From positions 1-20,238 of IMG/VR virus record IMGVR_UViG_3300035698_005350: DNA of 20,238 bases; one strand, 5' to 3'. This document shows positions 1,787 through 12,093 of this stretch, in pieces. This stretch comes from a virus. Under the pieces are notes generated by a model, which worked only from the letters and a program-made list of their open reading frames with translations, had not been told where the DNA came from and ran no database searches. Every line of letters begins with the position of its first letter. Position 1 is the stretch's first letter. Both the position numbers and the translations under genes were made by a program.

Positions 1787-2549
1787 TGAAATTAAAAACA
1801 GATTTACCGGGGAAGTTATTTTCGAATATGAATCAGAAAATAATACAATATCTAATACTGTAAGGGAGGCAATAAAGCAAGGGGCCAACCTGAGCTATGC
1901 CAACCTGAGCTATGCCGACCTGCACTATGCCAACATGAGCTATGCCGACCTGAGCTATGCCAACCTGAGCGATGCCGACCTGAGCTATGCCGACCTGCGC
2001 TATGCCGACCTGAGCTATGCCGACCTGAGCTATGCCAACCTGAGCTATGCCGACCTGAGCTATGCCAACCTGAGCTATGCCAACCTTAGCGATGCCAACA
2101 TGAGCGATGTCAACCTGCGCTATGCCAACCTTAGCGATGTCAACCTGCGCTATGCCAACCTTAGCGATGTCAACCTGCGCTATGCCAACCTTAGCGATGC
2201 CGATTGTGATAAATTTAAACACCTATTTTGGCATATCCCTGAGGAAGGTTCTTTTATAGCATGGAAAAAATTAGCAAACAAATATATCGCTAAGATTGAA
2301 ATCCCTGAAAATGCAAAACGTACTTCATGCCTGATTAGTCGAAAAAACCGTGCTGAGTTTGTTAAAACATTACAAATAATTGATAATAACGGTATTGAAA
2401 TAAATGAAATGTGCGGAGGAAAAGACAGTAATACAATTTATAAAGTTGGTAAAATTACAAAAGCAGATTCATATAATGATGATGTTACAATTGATTGTAC
2501 AAATGGGATTCATTTTTTCATTACACGTAGAGAGGCTAAAGAATGGTGA
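1770..2549 (+). CDS. Pentapeptide-repeat protein with DUF5758-like C-terminus
   Basis: The 259-residue protein starts MGKEKIEIKNRFTGEVIFEYE. It continues with 21 consecutive pentapeptides of the A(D/N)LSY type at residues 39-143, which should form a quadrilateral beta-helix. A globular domain follows at about 144-259: FWHIPEEGSFIAWKK, IPENAKRTS, ISRKNRAEFV, and near the end GIHFFITRREAKEW. These match what I know of DUF5758, commonly fused to pentapeptide repeats in phage and viral proteins. Pentapeptide proteins such as MfpA and Qnr mimic DNA and protect or inhibit gyrase. A similar DNA-mimic role in early infection is possible but unproven. The start lies 2 bp after the previous stop and has the ATAATCATG leader seen at several genes here. 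Confidence 0.85.
   Translation: MGKEKIEIKNRFTGEVIFEYESENNTISNTVREAIKQGANLSYANLSYADLHYANMSYADLSYANLSDADLSYADLRYADLSYADLSYANLSYADLSYANLSYANLSDANMSDVNLRYANLSDVNLRYANLSDVNLRYANLSDADCDKFKHLFWHIPEEGSFIAWKKLANKYIAKIEIPENAKRTSCLISRKNRAEFVKTLQIIDNNGIEINEMCGGKDSNTIYKVGKITKADSYNDDVTIDCTNGIHFFITRREAKEW
1884..2198 (+). repeat. Coding 15-bp tandem repeat, 21 units
   Basis: Twenty-one in-frame 15-bp units of the type GCCAACCTGAGCTAT / GCCGACCTGAGCTAT span exactly 315 bp. The last part shows a 30-bp super-repeat (GTCAACCTGCGCTAT followed by GCCAACCTTAGCGAT) present three times. The composition is clearly more GC-rich than the flanks. Slippage or unequal recombination is the likely origin. Confidence 0.9.
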
Positions 2550-2560
2550 ACTTAAAAAAT

Positions 2561-2583
2561 ATAATCATGGGAAAAGAAAAAAT
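2561..2583 (+). repeat. 23-bp direct repeat over a start codon (copy B)
   Basis: This is identical to 1764-1786. Both copies contain ATAATCATGGGAAAAG and both carry a start codon, so the two genes share the N-terminus MGKEK. Confidence 0.8.
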
Positions 2584-2716
2584 GCCGGCATGGCTTCAAA
2601 CATTATGGAACGTTAACCCTGGACTTGCTGAAAAAGCGGAAAAGTACGTTGAAAGATGGCAGGATATTGAAAGTGATATGAACAATTTAGGTATTAGAAT
2701 TTTGAAAAAAAGTTAG
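2567..2716 (+). CDS. Small 49-residue protein, unknown
   Basis: ATG 2567 to TAG 2716 encodes MGKEKMPAWLQTLWNVNPG followed by a helical, charged segment (LAEKAEKYVERWQDIESDMN) and a basic end (RILKKS). The stop is one base before the methyltransferase start, so the two are tightly coupled. The first codons and leader are a direct copy of those of the pentapeptide gene. The helical part could form a short coiled coil. No function recognised. Confidence 0.6.
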   Translation: MGKEKMPAWLQTLWNVNPGLAEKAEKYVERWQDIESDMNNLGIRILKKS

Positions 2717-2717
2717 T

Positions 2718-3395
2718 ATGGAAGTACGAAAATTTACAGGACGTTCAAACATTAACTTTTATCGGTGCGACAATATGGGATTTATGAAGGATATACCGGA
2801 TGATTATTATCCTTTGGCTATTGTTGACCCACCTTATGGTATAGATATAAATAACCAAAAGCAAGGCGAAGGCGGAGGTGTTGCTAAAAAGATTAACTAC
2901 ACAAAAAAGGATTGGGATAAACAACCACCAAGTGAAGAGTATTTTAAGGAATTAATGAGAGTAAGTAAGAACCAGATTATATTTGGGGCAAACCATTTTA
3001 TTAGTAAAATTCCATTTGATAGTAGCTGTTGGATTATTTGGGATAAAGACAATGGAAAAACTGATTTTGCTGATTGTGAACTTGCTTGGACAAGCTTTAA
3101 CACAGCAGCAAGAAAATTCAAATGGCTATGGTCTGGAATGCTTCAACAAAACATGAAACACAAAAAGAAGCGAATACACCCGACACAAAAACCAATTGAT
3201 TTGTATAGGTGGGTTTTGCAAAACTACGCGAAAGAAGGCGACAAAATCCTCGATACTCATTTAGGTTCAGCATCAATAGCAATAGCATGTTGGGATTTAA
3301 AATTCGACTTAGACGGCTGCGAAAAAGATAAGGACTATTTCGCTGATGCCTGTAACCGGGTTGATTGGCATACACGACAAACTCAATTATTCTAA
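2718..3395 (+). CDS. DNA methyltransferase, N6-adenine/N4-cytosine type
   Basis: The 225-residue protein of the N6_N4_Mtase family transfers a methyl group from S-adenosylmethionine to an exocyclic amino group in DNA. Visible motifs are DPPYG at residues 37-41 (catalytic motif IV), HPTQKP at 154-159, and LDTHLGSAS at 178-186 (motif I, SAM binding, where DPFxGSGT is usual). Catalytic motif before SAM motif is the beta-class order. The protein is short, so the target-recognition region between residues 42 and 150 is compact. No restriction endonuclease partner is adjacent; the HNH protein at 3842 looks NinG-like. It probably acts as a solitary phage methylase protecting against host restriction. 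The recognition site cannot be read from the sequence. Confidence 0.88.
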   Translation: MEVRKFTGRSNINFYRCDNMGFMKDIPDDYYPLAIVDPPYGIDINNQKQGEGGGVAKKINYTKKDWDKQPPSEEYFKELMRVSKNQIIFGANHFISKIPFDSSCWIIWDKDNGKTDFADCELAWTSFNTAARKFKWLWSGMLQQNMKHKKKRIHPTQKPIDLYRWVLQNYAKEGDKILDTHLGSASIAIACWDLKFDLDGCEKDKDYFADACNRVDWHTRQTQLF

Positions 3396-6662: not shown

Positions 6663-7979
6663 ATGAATAGAATAAGTAATGATAAATTACCTCCACAAGC
6701 AATTGAAATAGAAGAGGCCGTGCTTGGGGCTATGATACTAGAAAGGGATGCTTTCTTAAACAATCCAGTTAATCCGTCATGGTTTTATAAAGATGTTCAT
6801 AAACACATCGCAAGTACCATTAAGGATATGAACGATTCTGACATCCCGATTGACTTAGTACAAGTTACCAAAAAACTAAAAGATAATAATTTATTAGACA
6901 TTATCGGAGGCCCTAGTTATATCACAAGCCTAACACGTAGGGTTGCATCTGCGGCCCACATAGAATCTCACATAAGAATCATTCAACAAGAATACGCAAA
7001 ACGTGAAATAATCCGAATATCCTCAGAAATTATCAATTTAAGTTATGACAGCTCCTATGATGTGGATGATATTTTTACCAAAATTCAGAATGACTATTCT
7101 AAGGTCATGAGTTTTGGAGATGATAATTCAGCAACATTTAAAGAGGCATCTGAAAATTTAGTCGTTACCTTAAACTCAGAAATTGTATCTGGAATTAAAA
7201 CCGGGCTACATCTGTACGATAAGTTTACCGGAGGATTACATACCTCAGACCTCGTTATTATAGCTGGGGAGACTTCACAAGGGAAAACATCACTTGCACT
7301 TGCAATGTTCAAGAATTGTGTCTTAAATGGCTCCAGGGCGGCTATATTTAGCCTAGAAATGACAAAAGAGCAATTAGTGGCGAGAATTATATCCCAAAGG
7401 ACTGGAATCTCAGCGAAAAATATAATGTACAACAGATTATCAGTGGTTGAAAAAAGCACAGTCATAACAGAAATTGAAAATATTAAGAACATACCGATAT
7501 TTTTTGACGAATCAACAACTAACAACATCGACAAAATTTGCACAAGTATTAGGAAATTGAAACTTAAAAACGATATTCAGTTAGTCCTTGTAGATTATAT
7601 TCAGGATATGAAAGGCGCAAATGATGAGGCCGGTATTGCCGACATTGGCCGTAAGCTGAAAAATATAGCTAAAGAATTGAATATAAATGTGATTGCAGTA
7701 AGCCAATTATCTAGGGATAAATTAAACCCGGAACCAAATAGGGCTAGACTTCGAGGCTCCGGGCAATTAGAAGAGAAAGCAGACCAAGTAATACTACTTT
7801 ACAGACCAGAAGAGTATAATAAGACCTATTCAGAACCACATGAGATGGCCACAACATTAAACACGGCACAGCTTACAGTTGCAAAGGGTAGAAATGTAGG
7901 AACTGGTAGTTTTATTGTTGGATTCAATAAGCAGACTACTAATTTTTACGATTATATAGAGAATGAAAATGAATTTTAA
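6663..7979 (+). CDS. dnaB: Replicative DNA helicase, DnaB family
   Basis: The 438-residue protein has the full DnaB layout. The N-terminal domain (LPPQAIEIEEAVLGAMILE, about 9-27) is followed by a linker and a RecA-like ATPase. Walker A is AGETSQGKTS (201-210) and Walker B is QLVLVDYIQDM, with Asp310. Next come VIAVSQLSR and LRGSGQLEEKADQVILLYRP, the conserved C-terminal motifs. Length and order are normal. It unwinds DNA 5'-3' as a hexamer at the phage fork, probably loaded by the product of the preceding gene 5 bp upstream. It is the last gene of the recognisable replication block; accessory genes follow. Confidence 0.93.
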   Translation: MNRISNDKLPPQAIEIEEAVLGAMILERDAFLNNPVNPSWFYKDVHKHIASTIKDMNDSDIPIDLVQVTKKLKDNNLLDIIGGPSYITSLTRRVASAAHIESHIRIIQQEYAKREIIRISSEIINLSYDSSYDVDDIFTKIQNDYSKVMSFGDDNSATFKEASENLVVTLNSEIVSGIKTGLHLYDKFTGGLHTSDLVIIAGETSQGKTSLALAMFKNCVLNGSRAAIFSLEMTKEQLVARIISQRTGISAKNIMYNRLSVVEKSTVITEIENIKNIPIFFDESTTNNIDKICTSIRKLKLKNDIQLVLVDYIQDMKGANDEAGIADIGRKLKNIAKELNINVIAVSQLSRDKLNPEPNRARLRGSGQLEEKADQVILLYRPEEYNKTYSEPHEMATTLNTAQLTVAKGRNVGTGSFIVGFNKQTTNFYDYIENENEF

Positions 7980-7984
7980 ATTTT

Positions 7985-8152
7985 AACTATGAATTTTGGA
8001 ACGAAGCAATTCTCGAAGCCTCTTCAACTGCTAGGGCAAAAATAATATCTGTTCCTGAAACGATAAACAACAAGACTACTTACAGGAAGGCGTGTGTTGT
8101 AATTGAGAAATCAATTTTAAAACTACTAAAATCAATAAATAATAAAAAATGA
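7985..8152 (+). pseudogene. 55-codon frame without a usable start, possible gene remnant
   Basis: Straight after dnaB, a frame reads NYEFWNEAILEASSTARAKI, ISVPETINNKTTYRKACVV, then IEKSILKLLKSINNKK and TGA at 8150-8152. The composition looks protein-like and helical. However, no ATG, GTG or TTG precedes it before an in-frame stop, and the ATG at 7989 belongs to another frame that stops after 18 codons. It may be a gene that lost its start, a gene with a rare ATT start just after dnaB, or chance. The following ATGATG (8149) opens a 15-codon hydrophobic frame ending in the ATAACGG motif at 8166. Confidence 0.3.
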
Positions 8153-8241
8153 TGTTATACATCATAACGGTTGGCGTATTAATAGTACGGGAATAACGCA
8201 TGAAAAATTAAAACGAAGAACAAATAAAATTAAACTTTTAT

Positions 8242-8246
8242 GGAGG
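8242..8246 (+). promoter_or_regulatory. Strong Shine-Dalgarno GGAGG
   Basis: GGAGG ends 7 bases before ATG 8254. It is the only such site I see in front of a gene in this window, where other starts have A/T-rich leaders. A five-codon frame (ATGGAGGATTTAAGATGA) ends on the ATG of the gene, so coupling to a leader peptide is possible. Confidence 0.6.
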
Positions 8247-8253
8247 ATTTAAG

Positions 8254-8631
8254 ATGAATATAAAACAAGAAACAGTATTTAGATGTGAATTTTGCAACAA
8301 AGCAATGTTAGGTAAGGGTGCAATGAGCCTTCACGAAAGAATGTGTAAAAAGAACCCTAAAAACAAACACAAGTGCTTCCAATATTGTAAATGGCTAAAT
8401 AAAAATGTTGATGGAGCAACTGGATTCAGGTTCTTTTATTGCGGAAATGATAAATGTAAATTACACGAAAAAGACCTATACAGTTACAAGTTAGAGCGAA
8501 ATTACATCGGGCAACAACGAATTGAAGACGATAACCTTACACGTATGCCATTAGAATGTGATAATTACGAGATTGAAAACGGACATGATGACGAATGGCT
8601 GCGAGGGCAACTTGGAGTGCTTGAAGCCTAA
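8254..8631 (+). CDS. Zinc-finger-like protein, unknown function
   Basis: The 125-residue protein carries two likely metal sites. The first is C11, C14, H27, C31 (CEFCNKAMLGKGAMSLHERM), which resembles a C2H2/C2HC finger. The second is C41, C45, C63, C68 with H71 (CFQYC ... YCGNDKCKLH). The C-terminal third is acidic (LERNYIGQQRIEDDN, ENGHDDEWLRG). The fold suggests nucleic-acid or protein binding. It is the only gene here with a strong GGAGG ribosome site, suggesting a different origin from its neighbours, and its stop codon is the first TAA of a TAAC/GTTA element. Confidence 0.65.
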   Translation: MNIKQETVFRCEFCNKAMLGKGAMSLHERMCKKNPKNKHKCFQYCKWLNKNVDGATGFRFFYCGNDKCKLHEKDLYSYKLERNYIGQQRIEDDNLTRMPLECDNYEIENGHDDEWLRGQLGVLEA

Positions 8632-8666
8632 CAACGTTATATATGTAACTTTAACACAAAAAAACT
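8629..8666 (+). repeat. TAAC/GTTA palindromic element, copy 2
   Basis: The stop TAA of the zinc-finger gene opens TAACAACGTTATATATG, followed by TAACTTTAACACA. It holds TAAC-N3-GTTA and then the near-palindrome GTTATATATGTAAC at 8636-8649. TAACTTTA fits TAnnTTTG except the last base, with a TTG at 8620-8622 about 23 bp before it. Closely matches copies at 199, 8866 and 10018. Confidence 0.6.
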
Positions 8667-8677
8667 TAAATAGTAAA

Positions 8678-8696
8678 TAATTTTGAATTAAATTTG
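8678..8696 (+). promoter_or_regulatory. Two overlapping -7-like boxes before 8718
   Basis: TAATTTTG (8678-8685) and TAAATTTG (8689-8696) both match TAnnTTTG exactly, and lie 22-40 bp before ATG 8718. No TTG sits at the proper upstream distance, so promoter activity is only possible. Confidence 0.3.
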
Positions 8697-10060: not shown

Positions 10061-10252
10061 ATGAAATTACAAGTATCAATCAATAAGCGCAACCGTAAAA
10101 CATTTGATAGTTTTCTCAATTCAATACTTACGCTGAGTTATCAGATAGATGTATTTAGTAATCATTCCGGGAACCGGTCAAGATACGAGATACCGTTTGA
10201 AAATGATAACCAGAAGCGGACTATTTTAGAGATTATGAAACTATTAAAATAA
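10061..10252 (+). CDS. Small basic protein, unknown (63 residues)
   Basis: ATG 10061 directly follows element copy 4. The sequence MKLQVSINKRNRKTFDSFLN, SILTLSYQIDVFSNHSGNRS, RYEIPFENDNQ and EIMKLLK suggests a compact alpha/beta fold with strands at both ends. No recognised motif. It is followed 5 bp later by a small membrane protein gene with an ATAATCATG start. Confidence 0.45.
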   Translation: MKLQVSINKRNRKTFDSFLNSILTLSYQIDVFSNHSGNRSRYEIPFENDNQKRTILEIMKLLK

Positions 10253-10257
10253 TAATC

Positions 10258-10380
10258 ATGAAAAAACTAAGGAAACAAATAACCCTGGACATTAAGGAAA
10301 ACAAAGTAAGAAACTACCATATAGTAATTTTAGGAATAATTATAATTTTAGGGTTGGTAATTGATGTGATTGTAAAATAG
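10258..10380 (+). CDS. Single-pass membrane miniprotein (40 residues)
   Basis: ATG 10258 to TAG 10380. MKKLRKQITLDIKENKVRNY is a basic cytoplasmic start. HIVILGIIIILGLVIDVIVK follows, a single transmembrane helix of about 18 residues. Its topology resembles the miniprotein at 11564, but the sequences are not obviously related. The role is unknown; small membrane proteins of phages include lysis, exclusion and toxin functions. Confidence 0.5.
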   Translation: MKKLRKQITLDIKENKVRNYHIVILGIIIILGLVIDVIVK

Positions 10381-10386
10381 TTTTTG

Positions 10387-10394
10387 TACATTTG
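10387..10394 (+). promoter_or_regulatory. Promoter -7 box before the hairpin region
   Basis: TACATTTG is an exact TAnnTTTG match just after the miniprotein stop. A TTG at 10361-10363 lies 23 bp upstream, longer than the usual 19-21. Transcription would begin near 10400, exactly ahead of the four hairpins at 10397-10597. Confidence 0.45.
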
Positions 10395-10396
10395 AA

Positions 10397-10597
10397 TATC
10401 CGAATCAGGATAAGTTCTTTCATGGTTGATTATAGTTTTAGTTGGATAGCGATGCAGATTGACTGTTTACCGGAGCAATACCGGCATCGCTACAAATTTC
10501 TTTAAAATTACATCGTGAATTTCCGGATACCATACCGGCACGATGTTTCTAGTTCTAAAATAAAGTCGCTTATAAGGTTTGGGGAGTAAAGAAACCT
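10397..10597 (+). ncRNA. Structured RNA or long leader with four hairpins
   Basis: Non-coding gap of 288 bp between genes. Stems seen: TATCC/GGATA at 10397-10412; TAGCGATGC/GCATCGCTA at 10447-10455 and 10484-10492, a perfect 9-bp stem; ACATCGTG/CACGATGT at 10510-10517 and 10539-10546, a perfect 8-bp stem; AGGTTT/AAACCT at 10575-10597, followed by a T-rich tract. The second and third share a design: inside each, CCGG pairs with a second CCGG, the 5' side has a bulge (about 14 and 5 nt) and the 3' strand is continuous (ATACCGGCA). A promoter box precedes and a coding gene follows at 10669. It could be a separate small RNA, a cis-acting leader or an antitermination element. Known riboswitch or tRNA features were not recognised. 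Confidence 0.5.
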
Positions 10598-10668
10598 ATT
10601 TTCTATTTAATTTAAACATACATTCAAAGGGGGGTCAATAAAGGCTTCCCTTTTAAACCAAATCAATC

Positions 10669-11490
10669 ATGAATGAAAGATTGCTAAAACAAATCAAAGA
10701 ATTAAGGGGAGTGAAAACAGTCGATGGTATAAGTGATAACCGGTTCGTTGTAGATTTTGAGACTGAACTGACATCAGTAAGATGTATGACTGCTGACCAA
10801 TTCAACTTTGCATTTAAAAAAGAAAACGGAACGCACTACAGGGATGTTGAAATGCTAGAAACAGGGTTGTGTGTTTATTTAAGTAATGAATGTGGATGTG
10901 ATTTACCAGAGGATGCAATTCGCAAAAGCAATGTTATCAGCTTTGAGAAGTATTTGAAATGCAATAGCAATACCACGGCATGGCGGAAATATCTATGGGA
11001 GCTTCTAATCATCCGTTATCCAGTCGGAAGCAAGTTTAAGATAGTCCATAACCAAAATGAGGTAAGAACCGTTAAGAACCACGAGAAGTACAATGAAACA
11101 TTTTTAGTTAACTTAAATGAGGAATTAAATGTTAATGTGAAGGTTGAAGAAAATGGAGATACCAACGGTGTTACTGTCTATAATAGCAAACTAGGATGGG
11201 CCGAAAAGGTTGAAAAAAAGGTTGAGCCGGAGCCAAAAGATGAGTACGTACAGGGTAAAATTTACTTGCTTAAAGATGGATGTTACAACCCTACATTAAG
11301 ATTTAAGGACATAAATAATGGCAGAATAGAATATTATTCAATGCTATATGCTGGGGATATTTTATTAAATGTAATTATTCCAATAGGAAAATTTACACTA
11401 ACCCCAGCAACAACAAAACAAAAGAAGAAACAAATCAAAAAAGAGGTAAAAAATGGTTTCTTCTGGGAAATAGAACGTGAGAAACTTTGA
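10669..11490 (+). CDS. Unknown 273-residue protein
   Basis: ATG 10669 (MNERLLKQIKELRGVKTVDG) has the CAATC leader seen at other starts. The protein looks soluble and mixed alpha/beta. An N-terminal part is about 1-100, with two nearby cysteines (NECGCDLP). A middle part follows (KYLWELLIIRYPVGSKFKIV). A Lys/Glu-rich linker at about 185-200 (KVEKKVEPEPKDEYVQG) leads to a beta-rich C-terminal domain (KIYLLKDGCYNPTLRFKDIN ... GFFWEIEREKL). The linker suggests two domains. It is a single-gene unit between the structured region and a strong terminator. No enzyme motif is seen; the position suggests a middle gene, function unknown. Confidence 0.55.
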   Translation: MNERLLKQIKELRGVKTVDGISDNRFVVDFETELTSVRCMTADQFNFAFKKENGTHYRDVEMLETGLCVYLSNECGCDLPEDAIRKSNVISFEKYLKCNSNTTAWRKYLWELLIIRYPVGSKFKIVHNQNEVRTVKNHEKYNETFLVNLNEELNVNVKVEENGDTNGVTVYNSKLGWAEKVEKKVEPEPKDEYVQGKIYLLKDGCYNPTLRFKDINNGRIEYYSMLYAGDILLNVIIPIGKFTLTPATTKQKKKQIKKEVKNGFFWEIEREKL

Positions 11491-11510
11491 AATAAACATT
11501 CAATAAAGGA

Positions 11511-11534
11511 AAGGGAGCTACGGCTCTCTTTTTT
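11511..11534 (+). terminator. Rho-independent terminator
   Basis: AAGGGAGC-TACG-GCTCTCTT forms an 8-bp stem with one G-U pair and a 4-base loop, running into six T residues. It lies 20 bp after the stop of the gene at 11490, and separates the early/middle genes from the packaging and head operon. Confidence 0.85.
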
Positions 11535-11563
11535 ATTTAGTACAAATTTTGTAACTTGCGCTT

Positions 11564-11659
11564 ATGAAATTTATAAAAGAAAATATAGAATACATCATTA
11601 CAATAGTTATTTTAATTCTTGCAGTAGTGGAAATTTACTATTTTAGGGGATATTTCTAA
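11564..11659 (+). CDS. Single-pass membrane miniprotein (31 residues)
   Basis: ATG 11564 to TAA 11659 encodes MKFIKENIEYIITIVILILA and VVEIYYFRGYF. A short charged start is followed by one hydrophobic helix of about 18 residues. The stop overlaps the terminase start in TAATG (11656-11660), indicating translational coupling. It is the first gene after the terminator. The gap 11535-11563 holds no exact promoter; TAACTTGC at 11552 is only a near match. Function unknown. Confidence 0.5.
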   Translation: MKFIKENIEYIITIVILILAVVEIYYFRGYF

Positions 11660-12093
11660 TGGCATATACAGAGAAACAAAAGATTGAATTAACAAATATT
11701 ATATGTGAGCAAATGTCTCTAGGTCGCTCATTAAGGAGTGTATTAAGGGACAAAGGAACACCGCATGATACAACGTTTTATAAGTGGATAAATGAGGATT
11801 CTGGTAAGTTAGTACAATATGTGTGCGCGTGTGAAAAAAGAGCTGATTCAATATTTGAAGATATGATAGATATTGCAGACAGCCAGGAAGGCGATATTAT
11901 AAAGTTGGAGGATGGCAGAGAGGTAACTAATCACGATGTTATTCAGCGCGCCAAGTTAAGAGTTGATACAAGGAAGTGGATATTATCTAAAATGCAGCCT
12001 AAGAAGTACGGTGACAAATTGGAATTAGAGAGCAACAATAAGAATGTTATTGAATATGTGAACGTTTCAAAACAGTTTCCGAATAAAAAGTAA
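11659..12093 (+). CDS. Terminase small subunit
   Basis: The 144-residue protein has a helix-turn-helix-like N-terminus (SLGRSLRSVLRDKGTPHDTT, FYKWINEDSG). Next come the conserved helices of the Sf6-type small terminase (RADSIFEDMIDIADSQE, RAKLRVDTRKWILSKMQPKK, YGDKLELE). These are the signatures of the phage DNA-packaging small subunit, which recognises concatemeric DNA and forms a ring. Its partner, the large subunit, follows after 75 bp. That gap holds two frames of 11 and 7 codons, too short to call. Confidence 0.88.
   Translation: MAYTEKQKIELTNIICEQMSLGRSLRSVLRDKGTPHDTTFYKWINEDSGKLVQYVCACEKRADSIFEDMIDIADSQEGDIIKLEDGREVTNHDVIQRAKLRVDTRKWILSKMQPKKYGDKLELESNNKNVIEYVNVSKQFPNKK

Follow-up and report, generated by a model that had tools for sequence, protein, structure and literature searches.

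The window analysed here is the whole stretch of 20,238 nucleotides, positions 1 to 20,238 of IMG/VR virus record IMGVR_UViG_3300035698_005350. Two hairpins, hereafter hairpins 1 and 2, lie ahead of a gene at 10669, accompanied by a promoter-like box and two smaller predicted hairpins (Table 1). The protein of this gene has no relatives that could be found, and neither it nor five other small neighbouring proteins match Pfam or PHROGs. Elsewhere in the window, at 1770-2549 and 1123-1767, there are genes with many short internal repeats, one of them pentapeptide-like (ANLSYADLS) and the other specifying a second repeat protein.

Table 1. Coordinates of the features in the window and of tRNA-like sequences in other contigs
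Feature	Contig	Position	Strand	Remarks
TACATTTG box	window	10387..10394	+	fits TAnnTTTG
Short hairpin TATCC/GGATA, upstream of hairpin 1	window	10397..10411	+	prediction only
Hairpin 1	window	10447..10492	+	perfect stem; outer stem 10447-10454/10485-10492, 15-nt 5' bulge
Hairpin 2 (family hairpin)	window	10510..10546	+	model score; covariation with 14 further hairpins
Hairpin AAGGTTT/AAACCT, then T-rich sequence	window	10576..10598	+	prediction
tRNA-like	L044	12940-12822 and 12338-12277	-	
tRNA-like	L081	about 1592-1551	-	
tRNA-like	L185	2924-2862	-	
tRNA-like	L191	4846-4728	-	
tRNA-like	L152	2495-2602		
tRNA-like	L154	about 2499-2670		

The two perfect stems of the original prediction are both present, TAGCGATGC pairing with GCATCGCTA (10447-10455/10484-10492) and ACATCGTG with CACGATGT (10510-10517/10539-10546). 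Inside its outer stem hairpin 2 has a 5' bulge AATTT (10518-10522), a CCGG/CCGG inner helix (10523-10526 and 10535-10538) and the loop ATACCATA (10527-10534). The sequence ATACCGGCA is present twice in the window, at 10478 and 10532. Both hairpins had been assigned the same inner build; hairpin 2 folds in this way, but hairpin 1, in which a CCGG/CCGG helix with the loop AGCAATA is possible, favours another inner pairing (-16.9 kcal/mol for the lowest-energy fold versus -13.6 kcal/mol with CCGG/CCGG).

The folding energy of the hairpin region beats that of shuffled sequences (z -3.0), and a CCGG-loop-CCGG core with an outer stem of 7 or more bp and a bulge on the 5' side only was found twice in the window and in 0 of 300 dinucleotide shuffles. 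With any core allowed, the same general shape occurs three times in the window and 1, 1, 5, 3, 3 and 2 times in shuffles, so that the shape by itself proves nothing and the window alone could not decide the matter. The evidence for a family is drawn from relatives and not from these counts.

None of the 10 loci fetched as terminase-protein relatives of the window carries the hairpin. A loose CCGG pattern gave approximately 100 matches in IMG/VR, mostly due to chance, which were sorted by stem pairing; full hairpins were among them in contigs L044 and L081, the bulge and loop of which agree with hairpin 2 and disagree with hairpin 1. Patterns with unconstrained cores or stems added L130, L157, L158, L165, L185, L186 and L191. 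The last and most inclusive IMG/VR pattern returned exactly nine contigs, all of them known carriers, a sign that the collection is nearly exhausted for this form of the family. The family comprises 15 hairpins in 10 IMG/VR phage contigs (the window and nine others), representing several mutually unrelated phages, with one hairpin locus per carrier within the sequence examined. Half of the loci possess a single hairpin (L081, L130, L165, L185 and L191), and genuine tandem copies exist in four contigs other than the window. L151 is a probable eleventh carrier, its candidate hairpin (3093-3126, + strand; 31 bits) having an interrupted outer stem and lying directly before an HNH-like reading frame.

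Family members consist of an outer stem of 7-10 bp, a 4-bp inner helix, an 8-nt loop (consensus N-Y-A-Y-C-A-U-R) and a bulge of 5-6 nt on the 5' side only (consensus A-N-W-U-U). The stems vary while the 5' bulge and loop are the constant parts; the inner helices, for example, include CCGG/CCGG, CCGC/GTGG, CCGT/ACGG, CTGC/GCAG, CCGC/GCGG, TCGG/CCGA and CCGA/TCGG. In the alignment of the 15 hairpins 99.4% of the cells are paired, two-sided changes occur at 8 of the 11 pairs, and the covariation score is 0.808, four times the shuffled mean (0.203), falling to 0.18 or less when the alignment is slid. RNAalifold, unaided, arrived at the same structure. Since members had been chosen in part by their pairing, the least biased evidence comes from the last scan, to which no filter was applied. 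Its pattern places no constraint on outer pairs 4-7 or on the fourth inner pair, yet in its 11 hairpins these cells form standard pairs in 55 of 55 cases. A compensatory change, C-G to U-A, separates the close relatives L158 and L186. Wobbles on the hairpin strand are G-U in five cases and A-C in one, which weakly favours this strand acting as RNA. Taken as structure, the case for a conserved RNA hairpin family is strong.

Hairpin 2 has the fixed 5' bulge, the 8-nt loop and the covarying stems, and scores 50.7 bits against the family covariance model R2 (50.2 bits in a further comparison), in the training set of which it is itself included. Hairpin 1 scores 1.7 bits and falls outside the model, so the notion of two sister hairpins sharing one design breaks down at hairpin 1. 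Hairpin 1 is possibly a decayed tandem copy, and is best regarded as an unproven family member. An enclosing three-way junction was also predicted in the window; by eye, no such stem surrounds the tandem copies of L044, L157 and L158.

Two findings support the proposed selection on RNA structure: the covariation, which extends over phages independent of one another, and the absence of an Rfam match. No Rfam 15 family matches the window at gathering level, and at E-values up to 10 the segment 10250-10700 gave only implausible matches far below the cut-off. When L044, L081, L185, L191 and L157 were searched up to an E-value of 1, the cut-off was reached by tRNA alone, outside the hairpins; at gathering level in L201-L205, L158 and L186 the hairpins had no match and again only tRNA reached the cut-off. 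All nine carriers other than the window were thereby covered at gathering level or more loosely. The strict CCGG-core pattern produced 10 matches in 84,980 species genomes, nine without an outer stem and the tenth at the edge of a record. No family hairpin turned up in 395 Bacteroidota genomes, where one of the searches is a weak negative in that it scored few candidates per genome; these genomes alone formed the host search for cores other than CCGG. Within the genome sets searched, the same sequence did not turn up in hosts as it would for a CRISPR repeat or a mimic of a host RNA. BLASTN against GenBank phages and plasmids revealed no family hairpin, and literature searches with the hairpin sequence gave stray single-term matches (a 5S rRNA alignment, unrelated papers) and nothing relevant. 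The family has apparently not been described before, the Bacteroidetes candidates of Fremin and Bhatt having been compared by description only. Among these, HMP_4078 is likewise a candidate structured RNA, mostly from Bacteroidetes and near phage domains, but by its description it is 109 bp long, palindromic and present on both strands (PMC8040213).

The carriers most likely infect Bacteroidota, a judgement from sequence that is based chiefly on the terminase of the window, which is nearest to those of Polaribacter phages (45%). About 10 structural genes are common to L158, L186, L165 and L191, with L158 and L186 being the closest; L081 and L185 are related phages, and the helicases of the window and L157 are 52% identical. 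Not one protein family extends over all carriers; the most widespread occurs in 4 of 10. This points to a host partner, though several of the contigs are fragments and a common phage protein could have escaped.

In 9 of the 10 loci the hairpin has the same orientation as its neighbouring genes. TAnnTTTG, the promoter box of Bacteroidota, occurs within approximately 60 nt upstream in five loci (L130, L157, L165, L185 and the window; 0.38 expected), and a T-run directly follows the last hairpin in five (L130, L157, L158, L165 and L186; 0.35 expected); both expectations derive from the whole-contig background, which makes box and T-run appear rarer than they truly are in AT-rich intergenic DNA. 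A start codon follows the hairpin after about 17-40 nt in L081, L130, L157 and L185. In L158 and L186 a small cassette on the opposite strand, embedded among the structural genes, has the hairpins at its 3' end; in L165 the genes for connector and head closure are direct neighbours without the hairpin between them. The cassette (L158 9657-10179; L186 about 7830-8690) is moron-like, lies between structural genes and ends in the tandem hairpins, and that of L158 has a promoter-like box of its own.

The flanks of the window hairpins agree with the original prediction in part. The TACATTTG box is where it was said to be, but it is half a match only, as no TTTG/-33 element was seen by eye 19-21 bp upstream. 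Both flanking hairpins are predicted; no counterpart of the upstream one was noted in relatives, and the downstream one, a weak candidate for the 3' end, was not recognised in a scan of 10200-11700 for intrinsic terminators, which gave no site. The window hairpin is without a T-run, and the combination of a G+C stem and a T-run that marks an intrinsic terminator does not occur at the window locus but does at 5 of the 10 loci. A leader dedicated to the gene at 10669 is unsupported, since in other phages the hairpin occurs at 5' ends, at 3' ends or free-standing, beside unrelated genes.

While a phage RNA hairpin family is well supported, any function assigned to it is a guess. Changing stems around a constant bulge and loop are what is expected of a hairpin held in shape for some partner. 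Small hairpins with a fixed loop, a 5' bulge and free stem sequence are known from the iron-responsive element and the operators of MS2-type coat proteins; these resemble the family, also in possibly occurring in tandem, by analogy of design only, their bulge and loop sequences being different and the family having no known protein partner. Tentatively, and with a little less than even confidence, the hairpin is taken to be part of a small RNA or untranslated region, the bulge and loop of which are bound by a conserved host factor. It would lie close to the beginning of a short transcript or within an untranslated region, and its partner would be a protein, the ribosome or RNA polymerase, conserved among the hosts, that recognises bulge and loop in much the way in which an iron-responsive element or a coat-protein operator is recognised by its protein. 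Since it occurs at 5' ends, at 3' ends and free-standing, it more probably acts in trans or protects RNA than controls one particular gene. A more specific proposal, that the RNAs capture or mimic a conserved component of Bacteroidota translation or transcription and are possibly tied to anticodon-less tRNA-like RNAs, must be considered rather doubtful. To our knowledge Bacteroidota lack Hfq and CsrA, and little is known of small RNAs and RNA operators in their phages. Three other roles for the loop were discarded: antisense to phage start codons (in the contigs inspected, the 8-mer complementary to the loop has only a few additional sites), a loop-bulge pseudoknot (bulge variants occur without covariation in the loop, by eye) and mimicry of an anticodon loop (the geometry is wrong, by eye).

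Several other readings draw upon the same observations. The putL and putR sites of the lambdoid phage HK022, about 70 nt each and of another build as described, lie downstream of early promoters, fold into two stem-loops and require no dedicated protein (PMC9378689). Cis-acting antitermination or pausing of this kind, in which nascent tandem hairpins would bind host RNA polymerase and allow terminators to be read through, would accord with tandem bulged hairpins that are phage-only in the searches made, with a promoter-like box close upstream in five loci and with the lack of a phage protein common to the carriers. Nevertheless half of the loci carry a single hairpin, those of L158 and L186 sit at the 3' end of a gene cassette, and the T-run in five loci fits release rather than read-through; this reading is unlikely. 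The T-runs would suit a terminator or a stabiliser of 3' ends, on which a termination or RNA-protecting factor maintains the loop and bulge, but they are missing from the window, L044, L081, L185 and L191, and a plain terminator requires no fixed loop or bulge, which leaves this explanation improbable too. A small-molecule aptamer (riboswitch) could account for fixed unpaired bases inside variable stems, and for the short distance to a start codon in four loci; as the genes that follow the hairpin are unrelated to one another, and at some loci no gene follows on the hairpin strand, it is hardly credible.

Covariation would look alike in RNA and in folded single-stranded DNA, and the hairpin might thus serve as an origin, packaging or recombination site. 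Genome position and partner gene are inconsistent, however, and the excess of G-U wobbles and the orientation shared with neighbouring genes count against it as well, making a DNA structure very unlikely. The hairpin could also be the 3' module of a larger non-coding RNA with a tRNA-like domain. This is suggested by 4 of the 10 loci (L044, L081, L185 and L191), where a tRNA-like sequence whose anticodon arm is deleted or expanded lies beside the hairpin. The distance is 13-28 nt in L044, L185 and L191 (Rfam tRNA, 41-47 bits) and about 20 nt, by eye, in L081; the linker TATTTTT(T)GATAATCAAG is common to L081 and L185, which as related phages do not provide independent support. No tRNA-like sequence was seen by the hairpins of the window, L157, L158, L165 and L186, and a larger RNA is accordingly quite unlikely. 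A compact hairpin whose bulge and loop stay fixed across unrelated phages offers a direct handle for catching its partner, and the 15-sequence covariance model a means of finding further members.

The tRNA-like sequences retain acceptor and T arms, with the anticodon arm missing or greatly expanded, and ARAGORN is blind to them. Among the phages possessing them are Bacteroides phage BS-TP2 and Flavobacterium phage FL-1, which have the odd tRNA-like sequence in common but showed no hairpin in the stretches read.
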